This document shows, piece by piece, positions 3,044-26,111 of a stretch of 36,662 nt of DNA (position 1 is its first letter; each line of letters begins with the position of its first letter). Position numbers and translations under genes: made by a program. The DNA comes from a virus: the IMG/VR virus record IMGVR_UViG_3300042306_000268, positions 1 to 36,662 of that record; one strand, given 5' to 3'. The notes beneath the pieces were generated by a model. The model saw only the letters and a list, made by a program, of their open reading frames with translations, did not search any database and was not told the DNA's origin.

Positions 3044-3059
3044 TAGCCCGCAAGGGCTA
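3044..3059 (+). terminator. GCAA-tetraloop hairpin, weak terminator
   Basis: TAGCCC (3044-3049) and GGGCTA (3054-3059) close a GCAA loop just after the preceding gene. TTGGTTT follows, which also forms the start of P8. The T tract is poor. Confidence 0.45.
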
Positions 3060-3063
3060 TTGG

Positions 3064-3092
3064 TTTACACTCTGGTAAATTGGCGTTATAAT
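3064..3092 (+). promoter_or_regulatory. Early sigma70-type promoter P8
   Basis: -35 TTTACA at 3064-3069, 17-nt spacer, -10 TATAAT at 3087-3092, then ACAAGCATAC. This -35 departs from TTGACA, so it may be weaker. Confidence 0.85.
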
Positions 3093-3124
3093 ACAAGCAT
3101 ACACTAACACACTAGGAGCAAAAG

Positions 3125-3364
3125 ATGAAGCTAAACGAGATCGTAGACTACAGGGGCCTTGGCACCATCCAGATGCGACTGGACGAGGATGGTCGTAAGT
3201 TCTATTCCTACAAGCACAACTTCTTCAACCAGTACGGCGATGAAGACACCATCAAGGGTGCCAAAGAGATGCTGGAGTGGGAGCACGGTAAGGCCGTAGA
3301 GATCCAACAGGCTATCTCAACCTTGACCGCTCGTGGCTACAAAGTCTTTAAAGAAATAGCATAA
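3125..3364 (+). CDS. Small early protein, unknown function
   Basis: A 79-residue protein with an AGGAGC ribosome site. Its N-terminal half is beta-like (VDYRGLGTIQMRLDEDGRKF) and its C-terminal half helical (IKGAKEMLEWEHGKAVEIQQ). No Cys, membrane segment or known motif. Single gene under P8. Confidence 0.75.
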   Translation: MKLNEIVDYRGLGTIQMRLDEDGRKFYSYKHNFFNQYGDEDTIKGAKEMLEWEHGKAVEIQQAISTLTARGYKVFKEIA

Positions 3365-7441: not shown

Positions 7442-8218
7442 ATGAAGGTGGCCATATTAGTCAGCGGTGAACCTAGGTTCTGCAGGGAATTGACAGTGTT
7501 TCAATCTAGGCTTGTGGGCTTTGATTCTGCTGATTGGTTTGTGTCCGTTTGGTCACGCAGCCAAAGTCGCAGTGACTATTGGCGCAGTCAGGGCAGTGAG
7601 TTGGTGGCACCCGGGTGGCTCAATCCCACAGTGGAGTGGGCTCAGGAACGTATTCAGCTGAATCTACAGGGTGGGCATCGTTTGGCTCACTTAGAACTAG
7701 TGGATCAAAGTCAGCTAGCATTCCCTCACAGTGGTCGTGATGACGGTGTTACCAACGTGGCCAACGGGTGGAAAATGTTCTGGGGTAACTGGCGCACAGA
7801 TCAAATGCGTCAAGCACACGAACACAGCACCGGACAACCCTATGACCTAGTACTGAAGATACGTCCCGATCTAATGCTACACAATACCTTGGATCTAGCT
7901 CGCTGTGCTGAAATCCTAGGGCATGATGATCGTGCAGTGATCATGCCCGATAATACTCGTGCGGGCTATGGACATGCAGTCAGTGATCTTATGGCTGTGG
8001 GACGGGGTGCTGCCATGAGTTGTTATGCTGACTGTTTACATTCGATTGAACAGTATATAGCACAGGGTAAAATATTTCATCCCGAGACCATACTGGGAGA
8101 TTATTTGAAATCTCAGCAGATGGGAATACGCACTGCCGGATTCCGCATTGACATTAGACAGTTGGGTCAACGGATAAGTGAAACAGAATATATTAGCGAT
8201 TTCGGAAGTTGGGCATGA
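7442..8218 (+). CDS. Putative glycosyltransferase (paralogue 1 of 3)
   Basis: A 258-residue protein. It begins KVAILVSGEPRFCREL, a nucleotide-sugar-binding type first strand and loop. YDLVLKIRPDLML (near residue 138) resembles the acidic metal-binding region of GT-A enzymes, and GYGHAVSDLMAVG (about 177-189) is the best conserved block among the paralogues. Transfer of a sugar to a surface glycan is the likely role; donor and acceptor are unknown. It is coupled by ATGA to paralogue 2, and a more distant copy lies at 11467-12213. The assignment rests on paralogue comparison and general resemblance to polysaccharide-cluster proteins. Confidence 0.6.
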   Translation: MKVAILVSGEPRFCRELTVFQSRLVGFDSADWFVSVWSRSQSRSDYWRSQGSELVAPGWLNPTVEWAQERIQLNLQGGHRLAHLELVDQSQLAFPHSGRDDGVTNVANGWKMFWGNWRTDQMRQAHEHSTGQPYDLVLKIRPDLMLHNTLDLARCAEILGHDDRAVIMPDNTRAGYGHAVSDLMAVGRGAAMSCYADCLHSIEQYIAQGKIFHPETILGDYLKSQQMGIRTAGFRIDIRQLGQRISETEYISDFGSWA

Positions 8219-8982
8219 GAGTAGCATTGTTATTACCCGGAGAACCTAGATTCTGTAGAGAATTCGATCTGCTTCTGGAAAATCTCCGGGGCTATACCAC
8301 AGTGGACTGGTTTGTTTGGCTGTGGCAGGACAGTCAATGTGAAGAACATCGTGGAGTAGATGTTGTAGCGCCCAGTTGGCGTCACATGGAATATGAAACA
8401 GCACACAGTCGCTTGAACAGCTATCTGCCTGCAGGGCACCAGTTGATTAATCTAAGCATAGAGAATCGAAGCAGTTATCCTCCGCCTCGGGTACACCACA
8501 AAGCAGGGGAAACCAGCGTGGAACGAATGTGGGGCATGTATACCAGTGTGAGGGAATGTGATCTACAGCGCCGAGTACATGAACGGGCCACGGGACAGCC
8601 CTATGATTTGGTCATACGCACACGCCCGGATCTAGGCTTGGCTGCACCCTTGGATCTAGAACATTGTCTAGAATATCTAAAACAAAATCCCCGAACTGTT
8701 ATCACTCCCAGAAATGAAGTACACGGCTATGGGCACAAGACCAACGACATGATGGCACTGGGGCAGAGCAGTGCAATGTCCACTTACTGTGATCTAGCTC
8801 AGTACATAGTTGAGTATCATCATAAACTAGGTTTGATCTATCATCCAGAAACCATGTTGGCATTTCACATAGCAGCACAGGGACTGACTAACCATAATAA
8901 AGACAGCTATGAAGTAGTGTTGCGTAAGTTTGGCGCTGTTGAACGAGATGCTTACCGTAGCGATTACGGGCGCTGGGCTTGA
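8215..8982 (+). CDS. Putative glycosyltransferase (paralogue 2 of 3)
   Basis: A 255-residue tandem duplicate of the preceding gene, starting at ATG 8215, which overlaps the previous TGA (ATGA). Shared blocks are the N-terminal RVALLLPGEPRFCREF, YDLVIRTRPDLGL, GYGHKTNDMMALG and the C-terminal SDYGRWA (SDFGSWA in copy 1). Overall divergence is high, so the duplication is old. A TTG two codons earlier is less likely. Its 3' end overlaps the convergent GDPD-like gene by 19 bases, so the two transcription units collide here. Confidence 0.6.
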   Translation: MRVALLLPGEPRFCREFDLLLENLRGYTTVDWFVWLWQDSQCEEHRGVDVVAPSWRHMEYETAHSRLNSYLPAGHQLINLSIENRSSYPPPRVHHKAGETSVERMWGMYTSVRECDLQRRVHERATGQPYDLVIRTRPDLGLAAPLDLEHCLEYLKQNPRTVITPRNEVHGYGHKTNDMMALGQSSAMSTYCDLAQYIVEYHHKLGLIYHPETMLAFHIAAQGLTNHNKDSYEVVLRKFGAVERDAYRSDYGRWA

Positions 8983-9413
8983 ATCTTTAGAATCCAGTCA
9001 CTGCATATAGCATGACATTTCCAGTCTAGATTACTCAGTGTGAGATCCGCAGTTTCGGGCATGACCTGTACACTTCTCCCAGTTACAGGATATCCTGGAT
9101 AGGCCCAAATGTAGTTTTTACTGGTCAGTGTGTAATGATCTTCTTGATGCCAGAAATAATTCAAATCTTTGCCCAACAACCAGTCAAGTGCGTCTATGTG
9201 TTTGGCGTGTATCCACAGACCCGGTTGATCTAAAAATTCTCTAGTAATGTTGTACTGTGGACCATCGTGTCCTAGATAAAGTCTGCCGTCAAATACCCAT
9301 AGGTCAATTTCACAATCGTAGCCCAGAGCTAGACTATTTTTAATCTGCTGTGGTTGATTTTCTAATGAACGGTTAGGACCATTGATCAGTCCACGATGTG
9401 CTATCAGTTTCAT
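8964..9413 (-). CDS. Glycerophosphodiester phosphodiesterase-like protein
   Basis: A 149-residue protein with the hallmarks of the GDPD TIM-barrel family: IAHRG at residues 4-8, EIDLW near 35-39 (metal-binding Glu and Asp) and LGHDG near 47-51 (catalytic His). GDPD enzymes hydrolyse glycerophosphodiesters; full-length ones are about 240-330 residues, so this one is short and may be a reduced barrel. Small GDPD-like proteins occur in bacterial surface-glycan clusters, so the substrate may be a glycan-linked phosphodiester (inference). It is coupled by ATGA to the FkbM gene upstream. Confidence 0.7.
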   Translation of the reverse strand: MKLIAHRGLINGPNRSLENQPQQIKNSLALGYDCEIDLWVFDGRLYLGHDGPQYNITREFLDQPGLWIHAKHIDALDWLLGKDLNYFWHQEDHYTLTSKNYIWAYPGYPVTGRSVQVMPETADLTLSNLDWKCHAICSDWILKIQAQRP

Positions 9414-10090
9414 TTCTTTCTAAAATATAAGTTGAGTTCATTTGACCACTGGTCGTTTAATTGTTCGTGAAACACAGCAAATCCATGTTCAGAAAGGAAA
9501 TCTTTCATCTCGGCCACTGTGTGGTTTTCTTTGTAGAGTTTCCCTGCTTCATCCCGAGCACATTCCACAACACCTTCTTGAATTAGGCGTACATAGTCGC
9601 CCATGCCTTTGAGCACACGTAGGTCACTGCCCTGTGTATCACAATGAAAGTAATCGATCTTTTCCAAGTTCAGGCCCTGTGATTTATACCACGTATCAAA
9701 TCTAGAAACTTTGACTGTAACAGTTCTTGTGGTAACTAGGTCTCGCCGCCCGGGCCAGGTCTGACTTACTTCGTCAACAAATGGATATAGACTGCTAGCG
9801 CCCCAGTCACCTACTGGATCACGATCGGCAACATAAAATGTTGACTCACCGTCATAGTCACTAATTGCCAAAGGAAATACATGATAACGATCTTCGTAGC
9901 TAACGCCAGCTGGTTCAGCACGATGATAAAATTGCCATGTGTACCCATTTTTTCTTGCAGTGTCTATTCTACTAAACAATTCGGGAATAGGTTCAAATGC
10001 CCAGGTCTCTACTGAGGTGTCGTTACGTGTTCTGTCTAAACTGTCTTGACCCTGATTTGCACCGATGTCAAATAGAATATATTTGCTCAT
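9410..10090 (-). CDS. FkbM-family SAM-dependent methyltransferase
   Basis: A 226-residue class I methyltransferase of the FkbM type: motif I LFDIGANQGQDS (residues 6-17), the acidic strand EPIPELF (about 33-39), and YFHCDTQGSDLRVLKG (about 148-163), the FkbM signature block. These enzymes O-methylate sugars or polyketides; in polysaccharide loci they usually methylate a glycan residue. The gene sits between the GDPD-like gene (ATGA overlap) and the HAD-nucleotidyltransferase fusion (3 bases away). A role in capping or altering a surface glycan is inference. Confidence 0.85.
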   Translation of the reverse strand: MSKYILFDIGANQGQDSLDRTRNDTSVETWAFEPIPELFSRIDTARKNGYTWQFYHRAEPAGVSYEDRYHVFPLAISDYDGESTFYVADRDPVGDWGASSLYPFVDEVSQTWPGRRDLVTTRTVTVKVSRFDTWYKSQGLNLEKIDYFHCDTQGSDLRVLKGMGDYVRLIQEGVVECARDEAGKLYKENHTVAEMKDFLSEHGFAVFHEQLNDQWSNELNLYFRKK

Positions 10091-10093
10091 ACT

Positions 10094-11470
10094 TTAATCT
10101 TCTTTATGATTTGCTAAGAAATGATTTAGATCTTCCGGAGTGCCTATACCCCACATCTTTTGAATTTTCTTAACTTTAATTTTCTTACCTGCTTCAATTG
10201 CTTGATTAAACACGGGGCAAACATAAAATTCATTGTTAACACGAATGTTCTTTTCAATCATTTCTTCGGCATATTTAACGTAGTCACTGCCGTGCTTCCA
10301 GTAGTAAACTCCAACAGTGGCATCGTTGCTGATAACTTTCTTTTCAGCAACTTCACTGACAAAGCCGTCATCTCCTACACGGGCATAACTCCACTTTGGA
10401 TGGCTCGCTTCAAAGGTAATGATACCCCCGTCAATTTCATCTGCGTTGAATGCGTACATACATTCGTTACTGTTCCATTTGATGAATTGATCACTGTTGG
10501 CCATAACTAACGGAGCATCGTTGTTGATATAATCTTTAGCCAGCAATGTACTGCAAGCTGCCCCTTCAGTTACTCCTTCGACCTGCACAATATCACATCC
10601 TGGTGCAATTAGATTGAGCAAATACTTTAGATTGTATTTTTCGTAATGTTCTTTTTGTACAATGAAAATAAAGTGTGCGTCGATGTTTAGATTTTCCACA
10701 ACTACTTGAATCATCGGTTTGCCGTTGACTTCAATTAAAGGTTTAGGGAATGTGTATCCTTGTTGTGCAAATCTACTACCTGCACCTGCCATGGGTACCA
10801 GCACATTAAGTTTACTGTCTTTCCAAGGAATATTATTTTTAATTGTTTGTGAGTTCATATGTGATAATTTATTATTAATTTTTGACCAGGTCACATCGTG
10901 TGAGTCTTCTACAGCCAGTAAGTTTCCACCACTGTCCAATGCACCTTGTCTACCAATGTGACTGTCTTCAATGATTAGTGTATTGCGAGGTAGGGCATTG
11001 CAGACTGTCATACACTGCCAGTACATCTCTGGATACGGTTTAGGTAAAGTAACATCTTGATTGCTAACGTAGTAATCAACATATTCCATGACTCCTATTT
11101 TAAGCAGACTTAGTTTAACAGTTTCTCGTATGCTGTTACTGGCTACTGCAATCAAGTAACCTTGCTTTTTTAGTCTAGTGAATATGTCAATTAGTTTATA
11201 ATCAAAATCAAATTTGCGAATTAGATCAAATGTAGCTTCTTGTTTTTTACGCCATATTAGATCATGAAATTCTGCAGGCAATCCTTTTGTTTCAGATAGT
11301 AATTTTAATTTTTTAGTAGTATTGAGTCCGTCATATACACTAAGGTGTTCGTCTCTGTTGATCACATATTTTTTATCAACAGATTCTAATGCGGCATTTA
11401 GGCTATGATAGTGTAGTTCTCTACTTTCTATCAGTACACCATCTAAGTCAAAGATTACAAGTTTATTCAT
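10094..11470 (-). CDS. Bifunctional HAD phosphatase / sugar-phosphate nucleotidylyltransferase fusion
   Basis: A 458-residue two-domain protein. The N-terminal domain (about 1-205) is a HAD phosphatase of beta-phosphoglucomutase type: FDLDGVLIE, ASNS, LPKPYPE and IIEDSHIG supply the four motifs. The C-terminal domain (from about 222) is a GlmU/RmlA-like nucleotidylyltransferase: VPMAGAGSRF is the nucleotide-binding loop, and FPKPLIEVNGKPMI follows. A fusion of this kind could process a sugar phosphate and then activate it as an NDP-sugar. It has no clear link to ADP-heptose, because RmlA-type domains usually use dTTP, CTP, UTP or GTP. It is coupled by ATGA to glycosyltransferase paralogue 3. 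Confidence 0.85.
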   Translation of the reverse strand: MNKLVIFDLDGVLIESRELHYHSLNAALESVDKKYVINRDEHLSVYDGLNTTKKLKLLSETKGLPAEFHDLIWRKKQEATFDLIRKFDFDYKLIDIFTRLKKQGYLIAVASNSIRETVKLSLLKIGVMEYVDYYVSNQDVTLPKPYPEMYWQCMTVCNALPRNTLIIEDSHIGRQGALDSGGNLLAVEDSHDVTWSKINNKLSHMNSQTIKNNIPWKDSKLNVLVPMAGAGSRFAQQGYTFPKPLIEVNGKPMIQVVVENLNIDAHFIFIVQKEHYEKYNLKYLLNLIAPGCDIVQVEGVTEGAACSTLLAKDYINNDAPLVMANSDQFIKWNSNECMYAFNADEIDGGIITFEASHPKWSYARVGDDGFVSEVAEKKVISNDATVGVYYWKHGSDYVKYAEEMIEKNIRVNNEFYVCPVFNQAIEAGKKIKVKKIQKMWGIGTPEDLNHFLANHKED

Positions 11471-12213
11471 GATAGTATTGTTGGATCTTGCGTAACGGGC
11501 AAGTGATAATGTTTGTCAGTAAACTTAGAACGACCTCTTGTGGTTAAGACGTGATCGAAGTTTTCTAATCTGTATTTTATATTGTTCTTATTAAGGTAGT
11601 GGCCCAGTATATGTTCTCCGGACCAGTTTCCGTGTCCGTTGTGTTCCCATTGTGGATCTGATTCTACTACCAGCTGATTATATTGTCTACCTATGTCAGC
11701 GTACAATCGCATACTATTATAAGTACCTAAGGCAAATTGATCATTGACAGGCCATTGACTCCACCCACATCCATTTTTAGGAATCACAATGTCATCTTGA
11801 ACATCAAGTGATCTTAGATCGATAATTCTATTTAGCATGCCGTCTGGTCTAAATCTAATTACAAGATCGTAGTCCTGGTCAATTAAATCAAAGGCCATGT
11901 ACAAGGATTGCCACATTCCTATTCTACGTTGATACCACCAACGAATGTTTTCAGGAGAGGCCGGCGGATGTGACAGCGAGTGTAGTGGAAGATTCCATGC
12001 TGGTTGTTCTGTAATCTTTAGTTTTGCTAAACGGTAATTTGGCAACAGCACTGATTCTATCCTAGCTCTGCCCTCTGCTTCAGTCGAAACCCAGTCACTG
12101 TTCCAAAAATTTAGATAGAGGTCCGCAGACTCAAAGCCAGTTAGTTGATGCATTAAAGCAATAAAGTCTCCGGTAAACCTGGGATGGCCGCCGCTGATTA
12201 AGGCTACACGCAT
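11467..12213 (-). CDS. Putative glycosyltransferase (paralogue 3 of 3)
   Basis: A 248-residue protein related to the two plus-strand copies at 7442-8982. It shares RVALISGGHPRFTGDF at the N-terminus and YDLVIRFRPDGML in the middle, and the equivalent of the SDLMAVG block reads NDQFALG. It has diverged more than the other two and is in the opposite orientation. Probable sugar transferase for a surface glycan. It starts 1 base after the GT9-like gene stops. Confidence 0.6.
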   Translation of the reverse strand: MRVALISGGHPRFTGDFIALMHQLTGFESADLYLNFWNSDWVSTEAEGRARIESVLLPNYRLAKLKITEQPAWNLPLHSLSHPPASPENIRWWYQRRIGMWQSLYMAFDLIDQDYDLVIRFRPDGMLNRIIDLRSLDVQDDIVIPKNGCGWSQWPVNDQFALGTYNSMRLYADIGRQYNQLVVESDPQWEHNGHGNWSGEHILGHYLNKNNIKYRLENFDHVLTTRGRSKFTDKHYHLPVTQDPTILS

Positions 12214-12214
12214 T

Positions 12215-12991
12215 TTAGAAATATTGAATGTTTAATCTAAAAGGATAGTTAATTTCTAAACGCTCGAATGGTTCGTTCTTACGAACTTCTAGCATCATAG
12301 TCTTACCCAAAGCCAGTGCAACTGCACTAGGTCCACCCATGCTGGTAACAAAGTATTCACTACCTTGAATAACTCGAGCAAGTTCCATTAGATTTTCTGT
12401 TCTATAATGAGGTACCCATACTTTGAATATTTCTTCAAAGGCCGCATGTTCTTCTTCACTGCCTACAAATACGCCCTGGTCAGTTAATCCTCTTTGACAA
12501 ACGTTTTGCCATGTTTTGCTGTCTTTTTCATTTCCGTCTTGGTAGTTCATGTTACGATGTACTACGATAGGACGTCCTGGAATCTTAATAGGATTACGAC
12601 ATTCCATCCATGGATCTATTTGAAGTTGTCTGAAATGATATTTGTGATCAATGCCATTGGCTAGTGCATGTTGATTACTAAAATTACGAGGTAAGAAACC
12701 TGTCTCTAAATGCAATGCTGCATCTTCAAGTTCGTAATCAATATCTTCACCGTTCCATACTTTAAAACTATTAATGTACGGTTGATGCAACATAAACTCT
12801 TCCATTTGATCAAAGTCTACTTGTCTCATCTTATCGTTGTGACGTCCTGCATCAGGCCACCCTAACTTTTCTTGAATCATTTTTTTAAGATTACCTAGAC
12901 GAAGGTAAACATCACCACCGCCTAATATTTTAACTGCAACCATGCTACACAATGTGTCGCCCATGGTACCTGAATGTGAAAATGTTGTCAT
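12215..12991 (-). CDS. GT9-like (heptosyltransferase-type) protein
   Basis: A 258-residue protein from the ATG at 12991; an in-frame GTG at 13024 lies inside the upstream gene and is less likely. The N-terminus FSHSGTMGDTLCSM matches the GD-containing first loop of GT-B family 9 enzymes. The C-terminal part has the donor-site pattern of that family: VFVGSEEEH, then MELARVIQGSEYFVTSMGGPSAVALALG. GT9 members are ADP-heptose:LPS heptosyltransferases. At 258 residues it is shorter than the usual 320-350, so the acceptor domain is reduced. An ADP-heptose cassette at 20045-21924 supports the assignment. Confidence 0.65.
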   Translation of the reverse strand: MTTFSHSGTMGDTLCSMVAVKILGGGDVYLRLGNLKKMIQEKLGWPDAGRHNDKMRQVDFDQMEEFMLHQPYINSFKVWNGEDIDYELEDAALHLETGFLPRNFSNQHALANGIDHKYHFRQLQIDPWMECRNPIKIPGRPIVVHRNMNYQDGNEKDSKTWQNVCQRGLTDQGVFVGSEEEHAAFEEIFKVWVPHYRTENLMELARVIQGSEYFVTSMGGPSAVALALGKTMMLEVRKNEPFERLEINYPFRLNIQYF

Positions 12992-13001
12992 AATTTCTTT
13001 C

Positions 13002-13838
13002 TTATCTATACATATCTGTGGCACGTAATACTGCGCCTTCTAAAATCATATCTTTGTATTGTTCAACATTACTAGTAACACATTCGGGAAAGTAATCATC
13101 TAGTTGAACCCACTCATATCTTTCGCTGTCATTGGGACCATGATGTCCGTATTTGTTTTGTATAAACCATTTGATATTGTGACGCTTGATCATATCAGGT
13201 GTATCAGTTTCTGTGTGAGCAAAGTTTTGAATTTTGGTAATCGCATGTTGATCATCACCTAGGTAAGTGAAATGCCAGCCGCCATGATCCACAAATACTG
13301 TGTTTTCTGGCTTTGCGTTCCAAAAGAATGTCCATTCTCTTTCTTGTTGTGCGTTTGAATAACAACGACCTCTTGTTACCATGATGTTGGCATTTTTTGA
13401 AACGTTATAAACTTTCATGTAGTTTAGTTTATATTGAAATTGCGGAATGTTCAAGATGTATTTGTCATAATTATTCTCATCTTCTTTTATCAAAGTAACG
13501 ATCTCAGCACGAGTAATTTCGTCACAGTCACTGACAATAACAATGTCTTCGGGTTCCATATCATATAGGCCTCGGTCAAGACAAACCCGCTGGAAACGTT
13601 CACGGACCCACGAGTCTTCAGTCTCGGGCATGTCTTCTACTTTTATATGACGAATCTTACTCATCCACTGACTAAATCTCTCTTTGTTATTTTCAAAGAT
13701 ATATTCTTTGGGTTTACCGCTGTGACTTAGATTTGATTCTGCTAAAACAAATACGTCAACTACGTCCCACAGTTCTTTCAATCGAATTTCTAAAACGTCT
13801 AATTCGTTAAAGAATGGAAAACAATCATATACTTTCAT
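13002..13838 (-). CDS. GT17-like glycosyltransferase
   Basis: A 278-residue protein. The opening MKVYDCFPFFNELDVLEIRL is characteristic of family GT17 (N-acetylglucosaminyltransferase III type), and IVIVSDCDEITR near residue 105-116 is the conserved acidic metal site. The start at ATG 13838 fits the family N-terminus, has a GGAG ribosome site 8 bases upstream and shares one base with the previous stop (TAATG); a TTG four codons earlier is less likely. Bacterial and phage homologues act in glycan loci, and the exact sugar is unknown. Confidence 0.8.
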   Translation of the reverse strand: MKVYDCFPFFNELDVLEIRLKELWDVVDVFVLAESNLSHSGKPKEYIFENNKERFSQWMSKIRHIKVEDMPETEDSWVRERFQRVCLDRGLYDMEPEDIVIVSDCDEITRAEIVTLIKEDENNYDKYILNIPQFQYKLNYMKVYNVSKNANIMVTRGRCYSNAQQEREWTFFWNAKPENTVFVDHGGWHFTYLGDDQHAITKIQNFAHTETDTPDMIKRHNIKWFIQNKYGHHGPNDSERYEWVQLDDYFPECVTSNVEQYKDMILEGAVLRATDMYR

Positions 13839-14437
13839 TAAAATCTCCAAATGTATTGATAACCTTCATGTACTAAAGGTTTGCCGATGCTCTGCATAAA
13901 ATCATAAATGTATGCACCTTTGCCTTGACGTTGCCCATTGACAATAAAATTATCATCTACAGCAACAAGTGAACCAGGCCGCAGTCTAGACATAATTGCC
14001 GCAAGTTCTTTAATGTGATGTGCAGCACTGGGCCATGGGTCTTCTGGTTCGTAATCATAACTATCTAAGTATAACAGATCTACATAGTTCTCTGTTTCAG
14101 TTAAGTTCTGATTTGCTTGCCAGAGAAATTCAACGCTGTCACTGCAATGGATTTGTACTCGATCGCTTACTTGAGTAAGTGCATATTCTACGTGTTCTGG
14201 ATTGATGTCAACGGAGTGTAATTCACCGCCGCTTTGATTAATGAATGCATCAAAAATTCTTGTGCTGAATCCTTCATCTTTAAAACTTACGTCTTCGCTT
14301 CCCCACTCTTTATGTGGAGGACGAGCGCATCCTGTTTCAATTATTAATGGTTCTTCACAAGTTTTTAAATGCTCTATCATTATTTGGAATGAGTCCTGGC
14401 GCTTGCCAGTTTTACGGATCATTTCTTCTAAGGTCAT
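13838..14437 (-). CDS. Class I SAM-dependent methyltransferase
   Basis: A 199-residue protein. LIIETGCARPP (about residues 31-41) is motif I, SVDINPEH (about 94-101) the acidic motif II, LLYLDSYDYEP the motif IV region, and LVAVDDNF the post-IV strand. The layout fits the Methyltransf_24-like class seen in polysaccharide loci. AGGA precedes the ATG. This is the first gene of the minus-strand glycan operon, read from a candidate late promoter at 14463-14469. The substrate is unknown, probably a sugar. Confidence 0.75.
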   Translation of the reverse strand: MTLEEMIRKTGKRQDSFQIMIEHLKTCEEPLIIETGCARPPHKEWGSEDVSFKDEGFSTRIFDAFINQSGGELHSVDINPEHVEYALTQVSDRVQIHCSDSVEFLWQANQNLTETENYVDLLYLDSYDYEPEDPWPSAAHHIKELAAIMSRLRPGSLVAVDDNFIVNGQRQGKGAYIYDFMQSIGKPLVHEGYQYIWRF

Positions 14438-14515: not shown

Positions 14516-15208
14516 TTACTTATTGATGCTTAAATTTTTATCAAATGTCTGATCTATATAAGATACTAGCTTTTCTAATGATTTACTGTTACGTAAGCTC
14601 TTATATACTAAATTTTCTATCCCGTATTCTCCGGTCTGTTTTAGACCTATTTTGCGGTATTTTCGTAATAATTTTAGAACTTTTTGAGCCATTTCGAAGT
14701 CGTTTTGATTCAAAACATACCTGATTAAATTATCCCAGTACTCGTACTGCTTTTCGATGCTTTTACGGTCTATTTTGCCACTATAGTTCTTTGGCTCGCG
14801 TATCCAGCTATTAGTTTTAAGACTCCACGCTGAACTTACAGTCGGACGAGTTTGATCTTCTGTTCCGGGCTCTACAGGAATACCTCTGATATTGATTTGA
14901 AATTTTTCTTTAAACAGTAATCGTTTAGTGTCCAACAATTCTTCCACTTCTTGATCACACTGTATTTTACCATAGTCTATAATTAGATGCAGATCAAGAT
15001 CGCTTTGCTCGGTATAGTGATAAGTGACTTGACCTCCGGTTATTTGTACATCGATAACAGGAACATCGATATCTATAAATTCTCTAAATTTTTCTGCAAT
15101 CTGTAACAGCTTAACTTTAACTTCGGGGCGCAGTTGTATACCATCCCATAGTTTGGGATTTAATCGATCATGTTCCTCGTAGCCCTTGGTAAATTCAATC
15201 ATTCGCAT
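14516..15208 (-). CDS. Pol-beta-superfamily nucleotidyltransferase-like protein
   Basis: A 230-residue protein. The block GGQVTYHYTEQSDLDLHLII (residues 58-77) has the GG...DxD signature of pol-beta-type nucleotidyltransferases (D70, D72), and the next acidic strand follows. The C-terminal half is helical and basic (VLNQNDFEMAQKVLKLLRKYRK). Superfamily members add nucleotides to RNA, proteins or small molecules; the target here is unknown. An ATG two codons in (15202) could also be used. A candidate late promoter sits 7 bases before ATG 15208, back-to-back with that of the plus-strand neighbour. Confidence 0.6.
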   Translation of the reverse strand: MRMIEFTKGYEEHDRLNPKLWDGIQLRPEVKVKLLQIAEKFREFIDIDVPVIDVQITGGQVTYHYTEQSDLDLHLIIDYGKIQCDQEVEELLDTKRLLFKEKFQINIRGIPVEPGTEDQTRPTVSSAWSLKTNSWIREPKNYSGKIDRKSIEKQYEYWDNLIRYVLNQNDFEMAQKVLKLLRKYRKIGLKQTGEYGIENLVYKSLRNSKSLEKLVSYIDQTFDKNLSINK

Positions 15209-15237: not shown

Positions 15238-15798
15238 ATGATTGAACAAAATTATAGAGGTTATCTTTTAGCAGCTCATCCTAGACGACAGGAACCGATT
15301 CTTCGTAAAGGAGTATTGCTAATATTAGATCATGATGCAACCGGGGCTATAGGACTCCAGATCAATAAACCATTTACAAATGATATCACGTTTCAAACTG
15401 TAATGCAGAATGTAGGCTTACATACAGATCAAGACCAGCCTTTATACAACGGCGGTCAAGAGTCAACTAATAGAATACATGTAATACATAGTCTAGACTG
15501 GTATACATCTAACACTACTAAAGTTACAAATCGAATTGGAGTAAGTCATGATGTTTCAGTTCTTGCCGCAATAAGCAAGGGAGAAGGTCCTGAACATTTC
15601 AGAGTAGTTGCAGGATTTACACGTTGGTTGCCCGGACACATTGAAGGGGAAGTTGCAGGAAAAGAACCTTGGCATTCATGGAGTTCATGGAGTTATGCTC
15701 CTGCTGAAGTCGAAACTGTATTTGGATCAGATGATATTGACCAGTGGCACAAAGTTATAGCTGAATCAGGTCGTTTACAAATTGCAAATTGGTTTTAA
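15238..15798 (+). CDS. AlgH/YqgE (UPF0301) family protein
   Basis: A 186-residue protein with the order of motifs of this bacterial family: GYLLAAHP near the N-terminus, GAIGLQINKPF (about 36-46), LYNGGQES, IHVIHSLDW, then AISKGEGPEHFRVVAGFTRW and a C-terminal EVETVFGSDD block. Its length equals the bacterial family norm (about 185). The biochemical role of AlgH/YqgE is unresolved; AlgH was first named for an effect on alginate regulation in Pseudomonas. It is one of only two plus-strand genes within the minus-strand block and overlaps gp41 tail to tail by 4 bases. It was presumably taken from a host. Confidence 0.85.
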   Translation: MIEQNYRGYLLAAHPRRQEPILRKGVLLILDHDATGAIGLQINKPFTNDITFQTVMQNVGLHTDQDQPLYNGGQESTNRIHVIHSLDWYTSNTTKVTNRIGVSHDVSVLAAISKGEGPEHFRVVAGFTRWLPGHIEGEVAGKEPWHSWSSWSYAPAEVETVFGSDDIDQWHKVIAESGRLQIANWF

Positions 15799-17267
15799 TC
15801 TTTTTCAGGATTTAAATTAGCCAACATACTTCTAATGTCGGCAACACCCTTGGCGTGTTTATTTTTACTAACAGCTACACCTTTTGTAGGATCAATTGGA
15901 ATAATTTCTCCAGTTTCGGGATCAGTAGTAGTTGACACTGTGCTGGTCCTTTTTAGGCCTGCATAGACACTACTTCCGCCACCCTGTTGCCGTTGCTGAC
16001 TGAAACTGCCTTCTTGCTCATCTTCACCTAGGTCGCTAATACGCAATGTATCTACATTAAACTCTAGATCAACTTTTTGCCCAACACCACTAGAACTACG
16101 TGTCTTCATAAACTGTATTTGATACCGCCCACGTTCTTTCATAGCACGTGACGTAAAGATACCGATAACATTATCCGCCGTCATAATCTTACTCAATCCG
16201 CCCGAGATGTGGCTGTGATCAAACTCAATTTCTTCAACAGCACTACGGTTTAACTGTGACGCTGTGACTGTGATACATTGTGTTTCCATAGCCAAGTTAC
16301 GAATTTCTTCCGACACATACTTGTCCTTAACGAACAGGTCACTTGGGCTAACTTTAACACTCAACGGCATCATCAAGTCCAAATAGTCAATTAGAATAAC
16401 GTCGGGCTTGCAACCTTTCTTGACCTGATACTCTTTCAAGTAGGCACGGATATCGTTACAGTTCTTGCCCGATGGCATATACTTAACCTGTAAGTTACCA
16501 CTCTTCTTGCCCAACATCTTGACCTTGAGTTCAACGTCGTCGATGTTCTTAAAGATCTCTCGAGTTGTAATACCTGTCATCATACTATCGAGTCGCATAC
16601 CTACGAGGCCTTCGGCTAATTCAAATGTAAGATATAAGACATTAAGTCCAGCTAGTGCCCAGTTCACTCCTAAGTTGGCTAAGAACAAACTCTTGCCGCC
16701 ACCTGATCCAGCACAGAAGATATTCAGTTCACCTCGGTTAAATCCGCCGTATAATTTCTTATCAATGCTGGGCCATCCTGTGCTGATCTGCCCATTGCCA
16801 TCTTTAAGTTTAGTCAGACGTGCTCTGGGATCTTCAAAGTAATCTGTACCCATATCTTTGTTTAGAGATATCTGTATAGCATCCTTAATTAGTTTTTCAA
16901 CTGGACCGTAGTCTCCGGACTCTAACAAATCACTAGACTCGATAATTGCCCTTTCTAGTCCTTTGTGTCTGCTAAAGTTTTCAAACTCATTCATTAACCA
17001 TTCATAGTTTTCTCTGGGCAATGCAACTGGGTTATACTGACTTCTTGTAGATGCGTTGACGATATTGGCCTCGGGCATTACCTTGTATTCATCTACATAT
17101 TTTGTAATGAACTCTGCACTTTCTTGCAGTCGCTGATCAAAGTTTTTGGGATCAAAAATATTTTGACAACGTACAAACGTCTCAGCATCGCTTAGAAACA
17201 TTTCCAAGTACAGCTTTTGCACTTCAAAGTCATAATTGGGTTTTTGTGGTTTTTCTTTTTTATTCAT
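15795..17267 (-). CDS. 41: Replicative DNA helicase (T4 gp41/DnaB type)
   Basis: A 490-residue hexameric 5'-3' helicase. The N-terminal region (about 1-150) corresponds to the DnaB N-terminal and linker helices. The RecA-like core has Walker A GSGGGKS (about 186-192), LYLTFEL, Walker B VILIDYLDL (about 295-303) and the H4-type block VTASQLNRSAV. Length is near T4 gp41 (475). The C-terminal 60 residues are Gln/Ser-rich and probably flexible. It overlaps the primase gene by 8 bases, so both primosome subunits are translated together. Confidence 0.93.
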   Translation of the reverse strand: MNKKEKPQKPNYDFEVQKLYLEMFLSDAETFVRCQNIFDPKNFDQRLQESAEFITKYVDEYKVMPEANIVNASTRSQYNPVALPRENYEWLMNEFENFSRHKGLERAIIESSDLLESGDYGPVEKLIKDAIQISLNKDMGTDYFEDPRARLTKLKDGNGQISTGWPSIDKKLYGGFNRGELNIFCAGSGGGKSLFLANLGVNWALAGLNVLYLTFELAEGLVGMRLDSMMTGITTREIFKNIDDVELKVKMLGKKSGNLQVKYMPSGKNCNDIRAYLKEYQVKKGCKPDVILIDYLDLMMPLSVKVSPSDLFVKDKYVSEEIRNLAMETQCITVTASQLNRSAVEEIEFDHSHISGGLSKIMTADNVIGIFTSRAMKERGRYQIQFMKTRSSSGVGQKVDLEFNVDTLRISDLGEDEQEGSFSQQRQQGGGSSVYAGLKRTSTVSTTTDPETGEIIPIDPTKGVAVSKNKHAKGVADIRSMLANLNPEKD

Positions 17268-18264
17268 CTCTTAACGCTTCTAGTTTCTTCTTCATTAGAT
17301 TTATTTTTATCTCGCCCGCAACCTTGTAGTGCAAGATTGTGGCTAACACATACAGTCGTCCATATTTCTTTACAGCATCTGCTACATCTTTGACGTCATC
17401 GCCCCACGGAGGCAAACTAGCACTCCAGCCATTGGTTATTGCTGATTTGAGCATCTTGGCACCGGGGCGATCTCTGTCTGGTACTACTATAATTTCTTTT
17501 CCTAATCCAGTCAATCTTGCAATCTGGGCATCGTTAGGCTCGTTCGTCATAATGGCTACGCCATCTATAGCTATAGCATCAAATTGTCCTTCTACGACTA
17601 TGACGCATTGACGATTCCACCCTTGACGATCCAAATTAAAAACATATCCACTTTGACTATCTGTCAAGTACTTAGGGTTGCCGGGATTGATTTTTCTGCC
17701 AGTGTATCCTATTACCTTTCCATCTTGATAAAACGGTATTAGTACTCTATCTACATAGCCCGATGCAGGACTCCACATCCAATTGTACCAATCGAGCTCC
17801 ATACCCCTACTTAAAATGTATTCTACTATCTTGCCAATGTCTTCTGCTACATCGGGCAAGTACCCGGTATTAATCCATTCCATTACAGACATTGTGCCAT
17901 CGGGCAAGGGTTTTTCTAATAATACTAAATTTAGTGCTTTCTTAAGAACGGGCTGGTCATCTTTGATCTTGAGTGCCGCAAGATTAAGTTTACCTATGTC
18001 TATCTCATTCATGCCTATCCATTGAAATAGGCTTTTGGTATTCTTGCTTAGAATTTTACCAGGAGTCCATCCTGCGGCAAATCCACAATTGAAACAATGA
18101 TATACAAACCCGTCATTCTCTACTCTAATACCGCCACGCAGTTTTTCATCTTGACGTTCTCCTCTGTGATGACAGCAGGGAGCATTAAAACTGGTCCATC
18201 CACCGGATGTAAGTTTCCTCTTAGAAGGCAGTAATGTCAGTAATGCAGATTGTATATCGTTCAC
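17260..18264 (-). CDS. 61: DNA primase (T4 gp61 type)
   Basis: A 334-residue primase, close to T4 gp61 (342). The N-terminal zinc ribbon uses C30/C31, H32/H33, C57 and C60 (YHCFNCGF). A TOPRIM-like domain follows, with VIVVEGQFDAIAI (about 215-227) supplying the conserved Glu, and VVPDRDRPG (about 252-260) the acidic DxD site. It makes RNA primers for lagging-strand synthesis with gp41. It begins 9 bases after the upstream virion-type gene ends. Confidence 0.92.
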   Translation of the reverse strand: MNDIQSALLTLLPSKRKLTSGGWTSFNAPCCHHRGERQDEKLRGGIRVENDGFVYHCFNCGFAAGWTPGKILSKNTKSLFQWIGMNEIDIGKLNLAALKIKDDQPVLKKALNLVLLEKPLPDGTMSVMEWINTGYLPDVAEDIGKIVEYILSRGMELDWYNWMWSPASGYVDRVLIPFYQDGKVIGYTGRKINPGNPKYLTDSQSGYVFNLDRQGWNRQCVIVVEGQFDAIAIDGVAIMTNEPNDAQIARLTGLGKEIIVVPDRDRPGAKMLKSAITNGWSASLPPWGDDVKDVADAVKKYGRLYVLATILHYKVAGEIKINLMKKKLEALRDE

Positions 18265-19130: not shown

Positions 19131-19499
19131 ATGAGAGACCAGTTCCAAGAAAACTTTCCGTTCATAACCTGCTTAAAATCCAATGATAAGGAATATGTAG
19201 GTATTGTTATTAACTTTGATGATTATGTTGCTAGCATCTACGATCTATCTATGATCGTAGGAGTCGAGGAACGACAGATTTTCCTAGAAATGGGTGAAGT
19301 CTGGTGGTGGGAAAGTAACAGAAAAATACCCATAAACATTTTTCTTAAAAAAGAAATGCATGTATTCCGACCCTTTATAAAAACTTTTAATGTAAAAGAC
19401 ATAGAGTTAGTATTTGGTCCTAGTGTTAATCTAAGCGAAATTGCTGAAAAGAGAGTAAAACGTAAATCTATTCAGCTAATAAGGAATGCGAGGAAGTAA
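19131..19499 (+). CDS. Small conserved phage protein, unknown function
   Basis: A 122-residue plus-strand protein, divergent from the virion-type gene. The N-terminus is beta-rich (FITCLKSNDKEYVGIVINFDDY, Sm/SH3-like in pattern), with an acidic Trp cluster (GEVWWWES) and a basic C-terminus (EKRVKRKSIQLIRNARK) that could bind nucleic acid. It overlaps the convergent DnaE-like gene by 32 bases. No promoter is obvious. Similar proteins are, from memory, present but unnamed in related marine phages. Confidence 0.7.
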   Translation: MRDQFQENFPFITCLKSNDKEYVGIVINFDDYVASIYDLSMIVGVEERQIFLEMGEVWWWESNRKIPINIFLKKEMHVFRPFIKTFNVKDIELVFGPSVNLSEIAEKRVKRKSIQLIRNARK

Positions 19500-20058
19500 G
19501 ACCTTCGCAAATTAAGTTCATTTGAACTACAATAGCTGCCGCATATGCTATAGCGTGAGCTTTTTTAAAATAATACTCATTACCCGCAGGCTTTTGCCAA
19601 ATTTCTGCGTTTACAGTATTCCAGTCTTGTCCAATTAGATAGCGTTTTGCCGGTCTAATCATAGCTAATACCGCAGCCAATTGACTTATGCTATTTGGCA
19701 ACATCTGTCTTAGAATTGATCCGTGACCGTTCACATGGAACAACATATTAGTGAAATCGTCCTGTTGTAAAAGATCCCATAGTGGTTCTTGATTTAATAA
19801 TTTTAAGAGATGTTCTTCATCTCGTACATCTTTGTAAATTCCAACATTTAATAGGTCAATCTTAAAATACCCGCGGTTTTCAGCTTCTTTATAGTCAAAG
19901 CTAGCAGTATCAGTTATGGAATTGTACGGGATAGAATGACAATATACGCCAGTATTGTGCTTTTTAAAAGTTCCATTATCTTTAATAGCCGCTGGTACAT
20001 GCTCGATAATTTTGAGAATTTTTGTTCTATCAGCAAAGTCGATATCAATATCCGGCAT
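19468..20058 (-). CDS. Miniature DNA polymerase III alpha (DnaE/PolC)-like core protein
   Basis: A 196-residue protein that follows the motif order of C-family polymerase catalytic cores: PDIDIDF (2-8, palm aspartates), HNTGVYCHSIP (34-44, the HaaGV block), SFDYKEAENRGYFKIDLL (53-70, the K-x-D palm strand), MLFHVNGHGS (105-114, the FQ-ES block), AVLAMIRPA (129-137, the RPG block) and YFKKAHAIAYA (163-173, the F-KSHA-AY block). A bacterial alpha subunit is about 1160 residues; the PHP, beta-binding and OB regions are absent. Whether it polymerises DNA is unknown. It overlaps the heptose kinase gene by 14 bases. Confidence 0.75.
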   Translation of the reverse strand: MPDIDIDFADRTKILKIIEHVPAAIKDNGTFKKHNTGVYCHSIPYNSITDTASFDYKEAENRGYFKIDLLNVGIYKDVRDEEHLLKLLNQEPLWDLLQQDDFTNMLFHVNGHGSILRQMLPNSISQLAAVLAMIRPAKRYLIGQDWNTVNAEIWQKPAGNEYYFKKAHAIAYAAAIVVQMNLICEGLTSSHSLLAE

Positions 20059-20812
20059 TTCTAATCTCGTCGTATGATGGTGCGTAATTTCCTAAATGTT
20101 GTACAGTTAATCCTGCGGCAACGTTAGCAAACATTATAGCTTTCTTTATATCATTTGTATATAGGTATTGAGTGGTTAGTGCCGCCAAAAAAGTATCACC
20201 ACATCCACAAACATCACTTACTTCTACTTGTTTACTTGGATGCACTTCGTCCCATAGTCTAGCACCTTTGCTACCTAATGTAACAATTAACCCAGCACAC
20301 TCGCTTGTTAATCTGCTATACTCTAGTTCATTAATCTTAACCCATGCACCTTGAAAACGTTCTAAGTCAGTCTTTTTAGTGTCTATGAACACTGGTATGC
20401 TCAAAGCAACGAGTTCTTCGATTAATTCGTAGCTAACTGTACCTTTGTTGTAGTCACTGATCACAACTGCGTCGTAAATCGCAGGAATAGCCGAAGCAAA
20501 TTCAATAGGATTAGATTTAACATCATTGTCAATTCTTACAATGTGTTGTTTACTTTTGGAATCGATTAATCTGGTCTTAACACTTGTTTCTCCGCATAGG
20601 TATGTAACTTCACAGCCCAGTGCTTCAAGATTGAGTTTGACATTACGAGCCATGCCTGCTCTTTCTTCCTTAGAGCTATATTTGAATACAGGAACAGGTG
20701 CCTCGGGACTTATTCTGTCAACAGTTCCAAACTGATAAACATCTAAGCAATCATCCCCGATTAATAATATTCTGAATGGTGTTGGTAGTTGAGTATTCGC
20801 CGACTCTGTCAT
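20045..20812 (-). CDS. hldE1: PfkB-family heptose 7-phosphate kinase (HldE N-terminal domain type)
   Basis: A 255-residue sugar kinase. VDRISPEAPVPVFKY (31-45) is the signature of HldE kinases, ARNVKLNLEALG (55-66) matches the sugar-binding helix, VVISDYNKG (116-124) matches the HldE LSDY-KG block, and SDVCGCGDTFLA (199-210) is the PfkB ATP/catalytic site with D206 as base. The usual GAGD is GCGD here. It would phosphorylate D-glycero-D-manno-heptose 7-phosphate at C1. Bacterial HldE fuses kinase and adenylyltransferase; here they are separate genes in reversed order and overlap by 62 bases. Confidence 0.85.
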   Translation of the reverse strand: MTESANTQLPTPFRILLIGDDCLDVYQFGTVDRISPEAPVPVFKYSSKEERAGMARNVKLNLEALGCEVTYLCGETSVKTRLIDSKSKQHIVRIDNDVKSNPIEFASAIPAIYDAVVISDYNKGTVSYELIEELVALSIPVFIDTKKTDLERFQGAWVKINELEYSRLTSECAGLIVTLGSKGARLWDEVHPSKQVEVSDVCGCGDTFLAALTTQYLYTNDIKKAIMFANVAAGLTVQHLGNYAPSYDEIRNAGY

Positions 20813-21155
20813 AATAGATCACTTCTTTACAATATTCTTCTGCTGTGCTAGGTCTATCTTTTTTCCAGTCGCTGCCTTTTACATACACGTCTGGTTTCCA
20901 GCTTTTCATTATTTCTATAAGTTGTTCTTTGCTGTCAAAAAACAATACACTGTCAACTGCTTTTAAATTTTCTAAATGAAATTTACGATCTTCTTGGTTG
21001 TTAATAGGACGATCATCACCTTTTAACTCTTGCACTCTACGATCAGTATCAATCACAACCAGTACCGCATCTCCTTTGCTTTTAGCAAAGTTGAGCATTT
21101 CAATATGACCTCGATGCAGAATATCAAATGTTCCGTTAACCATTACTCGGGTCAT
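20751..21155 (-). CDS. hldE2: Heptose 1-phosphate adenylyltransferase (HldE C-terminal domain type)
   Basis: A 134-residue cytidylyltransferase-fold enzyme. VMVNGTFDILHRGHIEML (4-21) contains the T/HxGH nucleotide site, LKGDDRPINNQEDR (44-57) is the HldE-specific block, KAVDSVLFF follows, and VYVKGSDW (91-98) is the conserved second site. It would form ADP-D-glycero-D-manno-heptose from heptose 1-phosphate and ATP. Length matches the stand-alone RfaE2 domain. It overlaps HldD by 20 bases and the kinase by 62, so all three are made from one message. Confidence 0.88.
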   Translation of the reverse strand: MTRVMVNGTFDILHRGHIEMLNFAKSKGDAVLVVIDTDRRVQELKGDDRPINNQEDRKFHLENLKAVDSVLFFDSKEQLIEIMKSWKPDVYVKGSDWKKDRPSTAEEYCKEVIYYDRVGEYSTTNTIQNIINRG

Positions 21156-21924
21156 AATACTTTCTTAGGTTAGTTACATCAGCACATGTGTATGTTTGAT
21201 AATGTGCTTTAACATTATCAGGCATAGGAATATATTCAACTCTACATTTCATTCCTTCTGCAATTGTTCGAGCAACGTTATCAAACGATGTAGCGCGACC
21301 TGTACCGGCATTCCAAATACCAGATTCAGTTACGTTAAAAAACTTTTTATGAATACTAACTACTTCATGTACAGAAATAAAATCACGTTTGTAATTCTCA
21401 GAATTTTCAAATAGCTTGATAACTCCGGTAGCTTCTGCCTGCTTGGTAAACTTATGATGAGGGCTAGACTGATCACCTTTATGATCTTCATGAGGTCCAT
21501 ACACGTTGAAATACCTAAATCCCTGGACTGTTATGTTAGACCATTTTTCTCTAAATCCACTTACATATCTTTCAAAAAGATATTTGCTCCATGCATATGG
21601 ACTTAGCAAATGAACAGGTGCATTTTCGTTAAATTCTTTTCCTAGTCCATATACGCTTGCAGAACTTGCATATTGCAAATTTACATTGTTTGCCTGACAT
21701 TGATTGATAACAAGTCTACTAAAATCATAATTCTGATCTAGCATCTTGTCTACATCCATTTCAGTAGTAGACGAATTTGCTCCTAAATGTATGCACCAGT
21801 CTAAGCCTCTAAAATCTGGAAGTTCTTCTCCCCATTCAAAAAGAGACAGTTCGTGTTCGTCATTTAGTGCATTGACCATATTTTGACCAATAAAACCTTT
21901 ATACCCTGTAATCAAAATTTTCAT
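21136..21924 (-). CDS. hldD: ADP-L-glycero-D-manno-heptose 6-epimerase-like protein
   Basis: A 262-residue SDR epimerase. LITGYKGFIGQN (4-15) is the NAD(P) site; HLGANSSTTEMD matches the HldD ACSSTTE block; YASSASVYG supplies the Ser; YAWSKYLFE holds the Tyr-x3-Lys catalytic pair; GFRYFNVYGPHEDHKG and AGTGRATSFDNVA are further HldD-type blocks. It is shorter than bacterial HldD (about 310) but complete at the active site. It would convert ADP-DD-heptose to ADP-LD-heptose. It is coupled by ATGA to the cupin gene upstream. Confidence 0.85.
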   Translation of the reverse strand: MKILITGYKGFIGQNMVNALNDEHELSLFEWGEELPDFRGLDWCIHLGANSSTTEMDVDKMLDQNYDFSRLVINQCQANNVNLQYASSASVYGLGKEFNENAPVHLLSPYAWSKYLFERYVSGFREKWSNITVQGFRYFNVYGPHEDHKGDQSSPHHKFTKQAEATGVIKLFENSENYKRDFISVHEVVSIHKKFFNVTESGIWNAGTGRATSFDNVARTIAEGMKCRVEYIPMPDNVKAHYQTYTCADVTNLRKYYDPSNG

Positions 21925-25388: not shown

Positions 25389-25849
25389 TCGTAATCTTTT
25401 CGTTGCTTCTTGTCAAAACCCATTTTGTCAAACAGTTCGTCGATGTCTTTCTTAGTCATCATGCTAGCTAACGTCTTAATGTCATCTAGCTTCCATGCAG
25501 GATAAATTTCAGCTAACAGTTTTTCAATCTTATTTGCTTTGCCCTTTTTACCTGCGGCAAGATAAGGATGATACATGTTAGAACCAATACCAGTTGCTGC
25601 AAATAATTTCCACAACAAGGGTCTATGATTCTTACTTAATTCCCAATGATTTTTATTAACATACTCGTTAGTCCTTTCTAGGAACCATTCTTGCAATGAT
25701 TGATCACCTTGCACATTAGCAGTATACCTCATTAAGATGTAAGGACTGAATGCTTTCTTTTCCTCGTCGGTGAGGTTTTCGTAAAAGTCATAGTTGCGAC
25801 TGTCTACTGCATTTAGTTCACGCTTAATATCAAGTTTTGCGGTTGCCAT
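25385..25849 (-). CDS. Conserved T4-like phage protein, unknown function
   Basis: A 154-residue basic, helical protein. FSPYILMRYTAN (about 34-45) resembles the PFxxNR block of some T4-like clamp-loader small subunits (gp62), as does the helical C-terminus (LASMMTKKDIDELFDKMG). The clamp-loader genes 44 and 45 are not next to it, so this remains a weak possibility. VNKNHWELSKNHRPLLWKL is another likely conserved block. It overlaps its neighbours by 20 bases and by ATGA. Confidence 0.7.
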   Translation of the reverse strand: MATAKLDIKRELNAVDSRNYDFYENLTDEEKKAFSPYILMRYTANVQGDQSLQEWFLERTNEYVNKNHWELSKNHRPLLWKLFAATGIGSNMYHPYLAAGKKGKANKIEKLLAEIYPAWKLDDIKTLASMMTKKDIDELFDKMGFDKKQRKDYE

Positions 25850-26111
25850 ATCTTTTTTCGTAATCTTCTGTAAGGTAGTATGTTATTTTAACACGGTCCA
25901 GGGCGGCTTGTAAAGCAGTATCGGACTTGGCAGCACGATGAATATCACCCCACAATTTACTTTCCATTATTTCGTCATGCAATGATGCCCTAGGTGATCC
26001 TGTTCCGATTCCTACATTGCCGGAACTGTCTATCCGCATTTTTTCAGTAGAACCTGCATTTCTAGCATAAACAGTTTTACCCTTATCCGGACTTTCAAAA
26101 ATTAGTGACAT
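25830..26111 (-). CDS. Short chimeric protein with a tail-fibre-like motif
   Basis: A 93-residue protein in three parts. Residues 1-19 (SLIFESPDKGKTVYARN) match a short family common in T4-like phages, residues about 20-43 contain MRIDSSGNVGIGTGSP, a motif normally found in phage tail fibres just before the chaperone region, and residues 44-93 are helical (SDTALQAALDRVKITYYLTEDY). A fibre motif is out of place among replication-type genes; recombination between unrelated genes is the likely origin. Starts 1 base after the gene before. Function unknown. Confidence 0.75.
   Translation of the reverse strand: MSLIFESPDKGKTVYARNAGSTEKMRIDSSGNVGIGTGSPRASLHDEIMESKLWGDIHRAAKSDTALQAALDRVKITYYLTEDYEKRYGNRKT

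Follow-up and report, generated by a model that had tools for sequence, protein, structure and literature searches.

The window, by which we mean the whole stretch of viral DNA analyzed (36,662 nucleotides), carries on its minus strand an open reading frame (ORF) of 196 amino acids that almost certainly encodes the C-terminal half (C half) of a miniature DNA polymerase III (Pol III) alpha subunit divided over two genes. Read on the plus strand in frame 1, the same span contains stops throughout. The features of the locus are compiled in Table 1. The window also encodes UvsX, a gp32-type SSB, a UvsW-type helicase, UvsY and a terminase, which fits a T4-like phage. Amid the replication genes, a short ORF (25830-26111) has a middle part, DSSGNVGIGTGSP, that by eye resembles a fragment of a tail-fibre repeat.

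Table 1. Features of the C-half locus, in positions of the window
Feature	Positions	Strand	Basis or correspondence
C-terminal half of split minimal DNA polymerase III alpha, 196 aa (very probable)	19468..20058	minus	ORF (ATG at 20058, stop at 19468), PHROG, model, alignment
C half, contents: catalytic DxD strand, remaining palm, truncated fingers	19468..20058	minus	
PDIDIDF, residues 2-8	20035..20055	minus	D3/D5 = D401/D403 of E. coli DnaE (PDFDVDF at 400)
HNTGV, residues 34-38	19945..19959	minus	HAGGV at 511, E. coli DnaE
FKIDLL, residues 65-70	19849..19866	minus	K66/D68 = K553/D555 in VKFDFL, E. coli DnaE
IRPAK, residues 134-138	19645..19659	minus	RPGP at 639, E. coli DnaE
FKKAHAIAYA, residues 164-173	19540..19569	minus	FNKSHSAAYA at 756, E. 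coli DnaE
Convergent neighbour, 122 aa, phrog_11637 (function unknown)	19131..19499	plus	32-nt overlap with 3' end of C half
DnaG-type primase	17260..18264	minus	Homologue downstream of C half
DnaB-like replicative helicase (T4 gp41 type)	15795..17267	minus	Homologue downstream of C half

Motifs and predicted fold of the C half

The original prediction had listed six blocks of the DnaE/PolC catalytic core in this ORF, and the comparison with E. coli DnaE confirmed them: they follow one another within 196 residues in the order of their counterparts at positions 400, 511, 552, 609, 639 and 756. The fourth block, FHVNG at residue 107, corresponds to position 609, and FKIDLL at residue 65 sits inside FDYKEAENRGYFKIDLL. 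The catalytic aspartate triad of the C-family palm (DxD plus KxD) is present as D3, D5 and D68. As had also been claimed, the palm aspartates are much closer to each other than in DnaE, with 63 residues from D5 to D68 versus 152 from D403 to D555 in the E. coli enzyme. Between R135 and F164 there are just 29 residues, versus 117 between these motifs in E. coli, so some polymerase functions must have been lost or be supplied by other proteins; there is no space for a counterpart of the LRRAMGKKK stretch (residues 708-716 of E. coli DnaE). The chain opens with the DxD strand and extends 23 residues beyond FKKAHAIAYA, the motif in which the last long helix of the model (residues 166-195) begins. 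The GRGS triphosphate-binding segment is absent from the ORF, as are the PHP, thumb, clamp-binding and OB regions, and the chain has no space for HhH either.

The AlphaFold2 model of the C half, based on 99 sequences, had a mean pLDDT of 92.4 and a pTM of 0.80. In a Foldseek search with this model, the top 15 rows were all DnaE/PolC-type polymerase chains (best E value, 2.1e-4), and VIA-align retrieved 14 DnaE/PolC entries with Z scores of 6.3 to 9.5, whereas the next, unrelated entry scored 3.1. The model matches the palm and fingers of these polymerases across nearly its full length with an rmsd of 3.2 to 5.0 Å, which indicates a common core that differs in its details. Residue 1 falls on residue 419 of the Mycobacterium tuberculosis structure 7pu7, the Met of MPDIDIDF, and D3 and D5 are therefore in register; the alignments with five E. 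coli entries are shifted by one residue at their start (model residue 1 on residue 400). The predicted fold is thus palm-like and matches that of DnaE, in agreement with the assignment first made from the motifs.

Sequence relatives and conservation of the C half

The C half was matched with an E value of 4.8e-67 by phrog_11778, a family annotated as DNA polymerase, and more weakly (1.9e-6) by phrog_405, a full-size polymerase family of 1,190 positions. Similarity to cellular enzymes was far fainter. The NCBIfam model PRK05673 (Pol III alpha) and the sequence of the Pol III alpha structure 5lew gave very weak matches (E values of 0.03 and 0.037, respectively), and the sole Pfam match, a viroporin, is spurious. 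An hhalign comparison of the C-half family with the single E. coli DnaE sequence resulted in a P value of 0.0043 and a probability of just 8%. When the family profile was searched against PDB sequences, DnaE ranked first with an E value of 0.038, and the second match was an unrelated tRNA hydroxylase (0.074). A 190-position profile built from 99 relatives aligned with 5lew in four pieces, all weak, three of which fell on the expected motifs, namely, DIDIDF, the stretch from KMD to RP, and FNKSHA. The Pfam Pol III finger domain matched 60 of these 99 relatives at an E value of ≤0.1, the best being 0.00093. By sequence alone, similarity to DnaE therefore appears present but weak, which leaves the originally proposed relationship standing.

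Relatives of the C half are numerous in viral metagenomes, so that the expectation of similar proteins elsewhere held. In a tblastn search, 63 phage records carried the C half, of which 61 different ones were named. No match was obtained in plasmids, and 590 pattern matches in bacterial and archaeal genomes included no relative in a single-protein search that reaches close relatives alone; at an E value of 10, 6 of the 14 bacterial or archaeal genomes used as controls had matches to the phrog_11778 model. For the 99-sequence alignment, relatives were filtered by motif and limited to 80% identity, and the 12 loci that the filter excluded likewise carry D.D.D and K.D. A second set of 235 viral loci, free of any post-hoc motif filter, yielded 176 distinct sequences. 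All 176 contain D3, D5, D7, H34, G37, K66 and D68, as well as R135, P136, K138, K165 and H168; these loci came from short-peptide pattern scans (the best 80 of 556, 564 and 585 matches, any pattern being sufficient), and variants at some core positions are under-sampled because the patterns covered DIDIDF, the IR of IRP, and FKKAHA. Length and ends of the C half are similar across the relatives examined. The dN/dS ratio had a median of ~0.10 and ranged from 0.01 to 0.26 (654 non-independent pairs); the C half is under purifying selection. A chance match of motifs was rejected in view of the phrog_11778 family, the 63 phage records, this conservation, and the fact that DnaE and PolC were the sole strong fold matches.

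A second gene carries the triphosphate-binding half

Relatives of the C half occur together with a second small gene of ~175 aa that carries the GRGS segment (N half). In the superfamily, this segment binds the phosphates of the incoming nucleotide. All 7 named phages have PF07733 above cut-off in a small ORF of its own, and their N-half rows all contain GRGS without any motif filter having been applied. The segment is also present in 56 of 56 aligned N-half rows that had been preselected with the motif G.GR[GA][SC]. An N-half profile matched residues 321 to 392 of E. coli DnaE (E value, 0.0012). The model of the N half had a pLDDT of 90.6 and matched 14 DnaE/PolC entries with Z scores of 7.8 to 12.2, versus 2.4 for the next, unrelated entry; these matches cover the last ~100 residues, the first 76 being barely represented in the list of fold matches.

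If residues are numbered from the first G of G.GRGS, the N half of 75 of 80 viral-contig loci terminates after exactly 35, and that of the other 5 after 37 to 41. In E. coli DnaE, the stretch from GPGRGS to ERFLN also counts 35 residues; it ends at FLN393 and is followed by PERVS, M399 and PDFDVDF. The chain is therefore cut in the short linker that joins the triphosphate-binding segment to the catalytic strand. When both models are aligned with one and the same polymerase chain, their ranges abut: 306-415 (N half) and 419-841 (C half) on 5lew, 306-415 and 419-858 on 7pu7, 280-395 and 400-833 on 4jom, 294-457 and 461-888 on 4iqj_C, and 822-966 and 970-1384 on 9qrn.

Co-occurrence of the two halves with a family B polymerase

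The N half was found in 61 of the 62 named phage records that have the C half (60 from the tblastn listings, namely 57 matched by computation and MG592671, OR228459 and AP018399 added individually, plus Alishewanella phage Slicko01), which are not independent cases because several are duplicates or close kin. The C half is present and the N half was not found in PP728206 (109,507 bases). Thirteen IMG/VR records were selected because they have the C half; the N half was detected in the three largest of them (181-270 kb) and not in the remaining 10, all of 58-150 kb. Of 10 IMG/VR records selected by their N half, 7 contain the C half. In the other 3, one of which measures 359 kb, neither the C-half search nor phrog_11778 gave a match; the helicase of the window was also without a match in a search that had no positive control, and the records may therefore be incomplete. 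The 359-kb record (G016, with its N half in locus L134) encodes a family B polymerase, and neither C half nor helicase was detected in it; either it truly departs from the pairing or the record is incomplete. The N-half and C-half genes are separated by 14.6 to 281 kb in 15 records (linear distances, approximate for IMG/VR).

A family B polymerase was found in all 7 named phages, in 9 of the 10 N-half records and in 3 of 10 C-half IMG/VR records, the last being the three largest. The three largest close relatives of the window possess both halves and a family B polymerase. Within the 36.7-kb window, searches for PF07733 and for a family B polymerase returned no match and only the C half was found, so that the pairing of the two halves is deduced from relatives.

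Searches with the N half matched 86 phage records in one case and 74 in another, versus 63 records with the C half. The surplus matches seen were weak (E values of 2e-7 or worse), and many were annotated as Pol III alpha. Four of these records were inspected. The match lies within a full-size ORF of 1,065 aa in OR844993 and a full-size protein of 1,185 aa in PV245944, and it is part of a split full-size enzyme in ON950054. The fourth, OQ508956 (Slicko01), has a true N half, and a profile search located the C half ~11 kb away. Slicko01 is a 141-kb circular, non-jumbo phage with its halves at positions 2710-3222 of locus L363 and 67594-68148 of OQ508956; the split polymerase is therefore not confined to jumbo phages. 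A DnaQ-like exonuclease was also considered as a constant partner and rejected, with RNase_T above cut-off in just 6 of 17 records.

Full-size DnaE cut at the same linker

Two phages of the genus Cbastvirus, Tenacibaculum phage Larrie and Cellulophaga phage phiST, encode a full-size DnaE as two adjacent genes (L358:2146-5726 and L360:922-4522, respectively), and the chain is broken at the same linker as in the miniature enzyme. Their N gene comprises PHP and positions 3 to 98 of PF07733, and their C gene continues from PF07733 position 100 with fingers and HhH; in phiST, LPDID.DF is located 18 residues into the C gene. Unlike the miniature enzyme, the Cbastvirus DnaE is of full size (515 + 676 aa in Larrie), retains PHP, fingers and HhH, and has adjacent genes. 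The N gene has ~55 additional residues past FLNSGR, and the C gene has ~18 ahead of LPDID. By eye, the N-gene tail is Hint/intein-like; the tail of Larrie had no match at an E value of 1 among the Pfam and NCBIfam intein families. A relative in Chryseobacterium phage MA9V-3 is uncut, and in its single chain this region reads FLNEGRVGKSLPDIDND. No match to a family B polymerase was obtained in phiST, Larrie or MA9V-3, for which reason DnaE may be the main replicase of these phages. By analogy, the split in Larrie and phiST supports the idea that a palm cut at the linker can be rebuilt from two chains.

Gene neighborhood

The C half, the convergent phrog_11637 gene, a virion-protein gene, the primase gene and the DnaB helicase gene form a conserved order. 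Homologues of the phrog_11637 protein were found in 78 of the 79 IMG/VR loci with room for them and in 6 of 7 phages, and all 84 lie on the opposite strand; given this constancy, the protein may be functionally linked to the C half. All 65 IMG/VR loci with room have the primase homologue downstream of the C half, and all 55 with room have the helicase homologue there; each is also present in 6 of 7 phages. The virion-protein homologue was present near the C half in 69 of 71 such loci and in 2 of 7 phages.

On the other side lies a sugar-nucleotide cassette (20045-21924) that encodes a PfkB kinase, a cytidylyltransferase and a NAD-dependent epimerase and that we take to resemble split genes for ADP-heptose synthesis. 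A function of the C half tied to these upstream sugar-kinase and nucleotidyltransferase genes was rejected, because PfkB is upstream in just 20 of 76 IMG/VR loci and in 0 of 7 phages, whereas primase and helicase are constant. By eye, further probable sugar-related genes are located at 7442-13850, among them a pair of similar, neighboring ORFs (7442-8218 and 8209-8982) and the fusion of a HAD-like protein with a nucleotidyltransferase (10094-11470). The product of 14516-15208 (230 aa) has a weak MTPAP-like match (poly(A)-polymerase-like palm; E value of 0.0061, under the curated cut-off) and is perhaps another polymerase-beta-type nucleotidyltransferase. An AlgH-like (DUF179) protein is encoded at 15238-15798 (E value, 4.6e-25), adjoining the helicase gene on the opposite strand.

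Discussion

We favor, with a probability of roughly 60%, the reading that the two genes specify a two-chain minimal DnaE-type Pol III alpha that docks into one enzyme of low processivity and carries out short synthesis beside the family B replicase. The C half would be the metal- and template-binding half, and the other protein would contribute the GRGS triphosphate-binding half. The two chains would dock without a covalent link into one rebuilt palm, in which D3, D5 and D68 would hold two metal ions and GRGS the phosphates of the incoming nucleotide, allowing ordinary two-metal nucleotidyl transfer. The enzyme is expected to be distributive, adding few nucleotides per binding, because the C half cannot accommodate thumb, clamp-binding, HhH and OB regions and its fingers are shortened. 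Its most likely task would be to synthesize short stretches of DNA close to the primase and helicase, either at the fork or behind it, for instance in primer extension, gap filling or repair.

Part of the original prediction needs to be revised in this light. A polymerase core in 196 residues had been proposed, and palm and fingers are indeed there, but the protein is not self-contained: with the GRGS half in a second gene, the C half should, by homology, not work alone. The placement of a C-family palm and fingers core in a T4-like lineage that has a family B polymerase was borne out by the named phages and the larger relatives. A 196-residue polymerase sufficient in itself could draw on the compact, confidently predicted fold and the catalytic triad; we consider it very improbable, since the triphosphate-binding half is not in the chain and a separate gene provides it in nearly all of the named phage records. 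Similarly, a bacterial dnaE that was captured and is now decaying would account for a chain far shorter than DnaE, and a protein of phage CBB has been termed a "truncated" Pol III alpha in its genome paper (PMC5259590). The similar length and ends of the relatives examined, the low dN/dS and the conserved gene order nevertheless make such decay scarcely credible.

The two remaining alternatives concern what the pair does. The C half might be inactive as a catalyst and, as a mimic of Pol III alpha, bind replisome parts of phage or host in the role of a scaffold, regulator or decoy. The decoy had already been raised in the original prediction, and any of these roles would be in keeping with the lack of GRGS in the ORF, which alone cannot be a full nucleotidyltransferase. 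The three aspartates, K66 and the GRGS of the partner are kept in the sets examined, which would be needless in a dead protein, and there is purifying selection; we thus disfavor a decoy and regard it as quite improbable. Less easily set aside, though still unlikely, is a reunited pair that acts as a nucleotidyltransferase other than a templated DNA polymerase, for example in template-free addition or on another substrate. The missing space for thumb, clamp-binding, HhH and OB regions, the loss of much of the fingers with the short distance from R135 to F164, and the family B polymerase already present in the phages would all suit such an activity. On the other hand, HNTGV, RP and KKAHA, which are positions of the DnaE palm and fingers, are kept, and primase and helicase are the neighbors, all of which argues against this alternative.

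In its most far-reaching form, which we put forward tentatively, the two-chain polymerase would be an active C-family enzyme that is held together non-covalently, lacks a thumb, is smaller than any other C-family DNA polymerase known to us and shares the fork with a family B replicase. The linker, cut independently in full-size phage DnaE, would then be a site at which the C-family palm is naturally assembled, and the convergent phrog_11637 protein could be a third part. If active, the pair would offer a very small two-piece model of a bacterial replicative polymerase with which to probe what the rest of DnaE does, and one phage replisome would combine polymerases of the bacterial and the archaeo-eukaryotic type. 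The break point and the partner identified here define the two proteins concerned.

Comparison with known polymerases

Bacterial DnaE (7pu7, 2hnh, 4jom, 4iqj) shares with the C half the order of DxD, KxD, RP and F(N/K)K(S/A)HA and a fold that aligns with Z scores of up to 9.5 over 194 residues. It differs in being one chain of ~1,100 to 1,200 aa with PHP, thumb, full fingers, clamp-binding and OB regions, versus two chains of ~175 and 196 aa. PolC structures (3f2b, 3f2c, 9qrn, 9qpc, 9qrl) share the N-half fold, and the C half matches 9qrn, 9qpc and 9qrl, which we infer to be PolC from their matching residue numbers. PolC chains hold extra residues, as 93 to 94 aligned N-half positions span ~145 residues, whereas E. 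coli DnaE has no extra residues between FLN and PERVS-M.

Both halves are annotated as DnaE-like in the record of phage Phosso. The open-licence literature, mostly as titles and the beginnings of abstracts, yielded no report of a biochemical or genetic test of the split enzyme. Among jumbo phages, those of group 3.2, such as phage G, are described as having a full-length, host-like Pol III alpha (PMC7824862); it is also a C-family enzyme and differs from the C half in being a single chain with PHP. The truncated CBB protein mentioned above, CBB_328 (172 aa; PMC5259590), seems from its size and annotation to be an N half, and the same seems true, from size or position, of gp316 of Atu_ph07, reported as Pol III alpha (PMC6102473). 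According to a 2022 paper, PF07733 occurs in 51.9% of phage group PGC_A (PMC9123017).

The closest known system is the split minimal Pol III alpha that Iyer et al. described in 2021 for group 2.2 jumbo phages by sequence comparison (PMC7824862). The C half very probably belongs to this polymerase; the arrangement was already published, contrary to the implication of the original prediction that the protein had escaped description. As described there, the system consists of two genes, for an NTP-binding N part and a Mg- and template-binding C part, in phages with a family B polymerase. Atu_ph07, placed in group 2.2 by the same paper, has both halves in our analysis and hence belongs to the same lineage; the equation of the two systems is based on the description in that paper. 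The contig of the window represents an unlabelled environmental member. Relative to that description, the present analysis adds the exact break point, the counts for the coupling of the two halves, the placement of both models on the same polymerase chains, the conserved neighbors, and the occurrence of both halves in the non-jumbo, 141-kb phage Slicko01.
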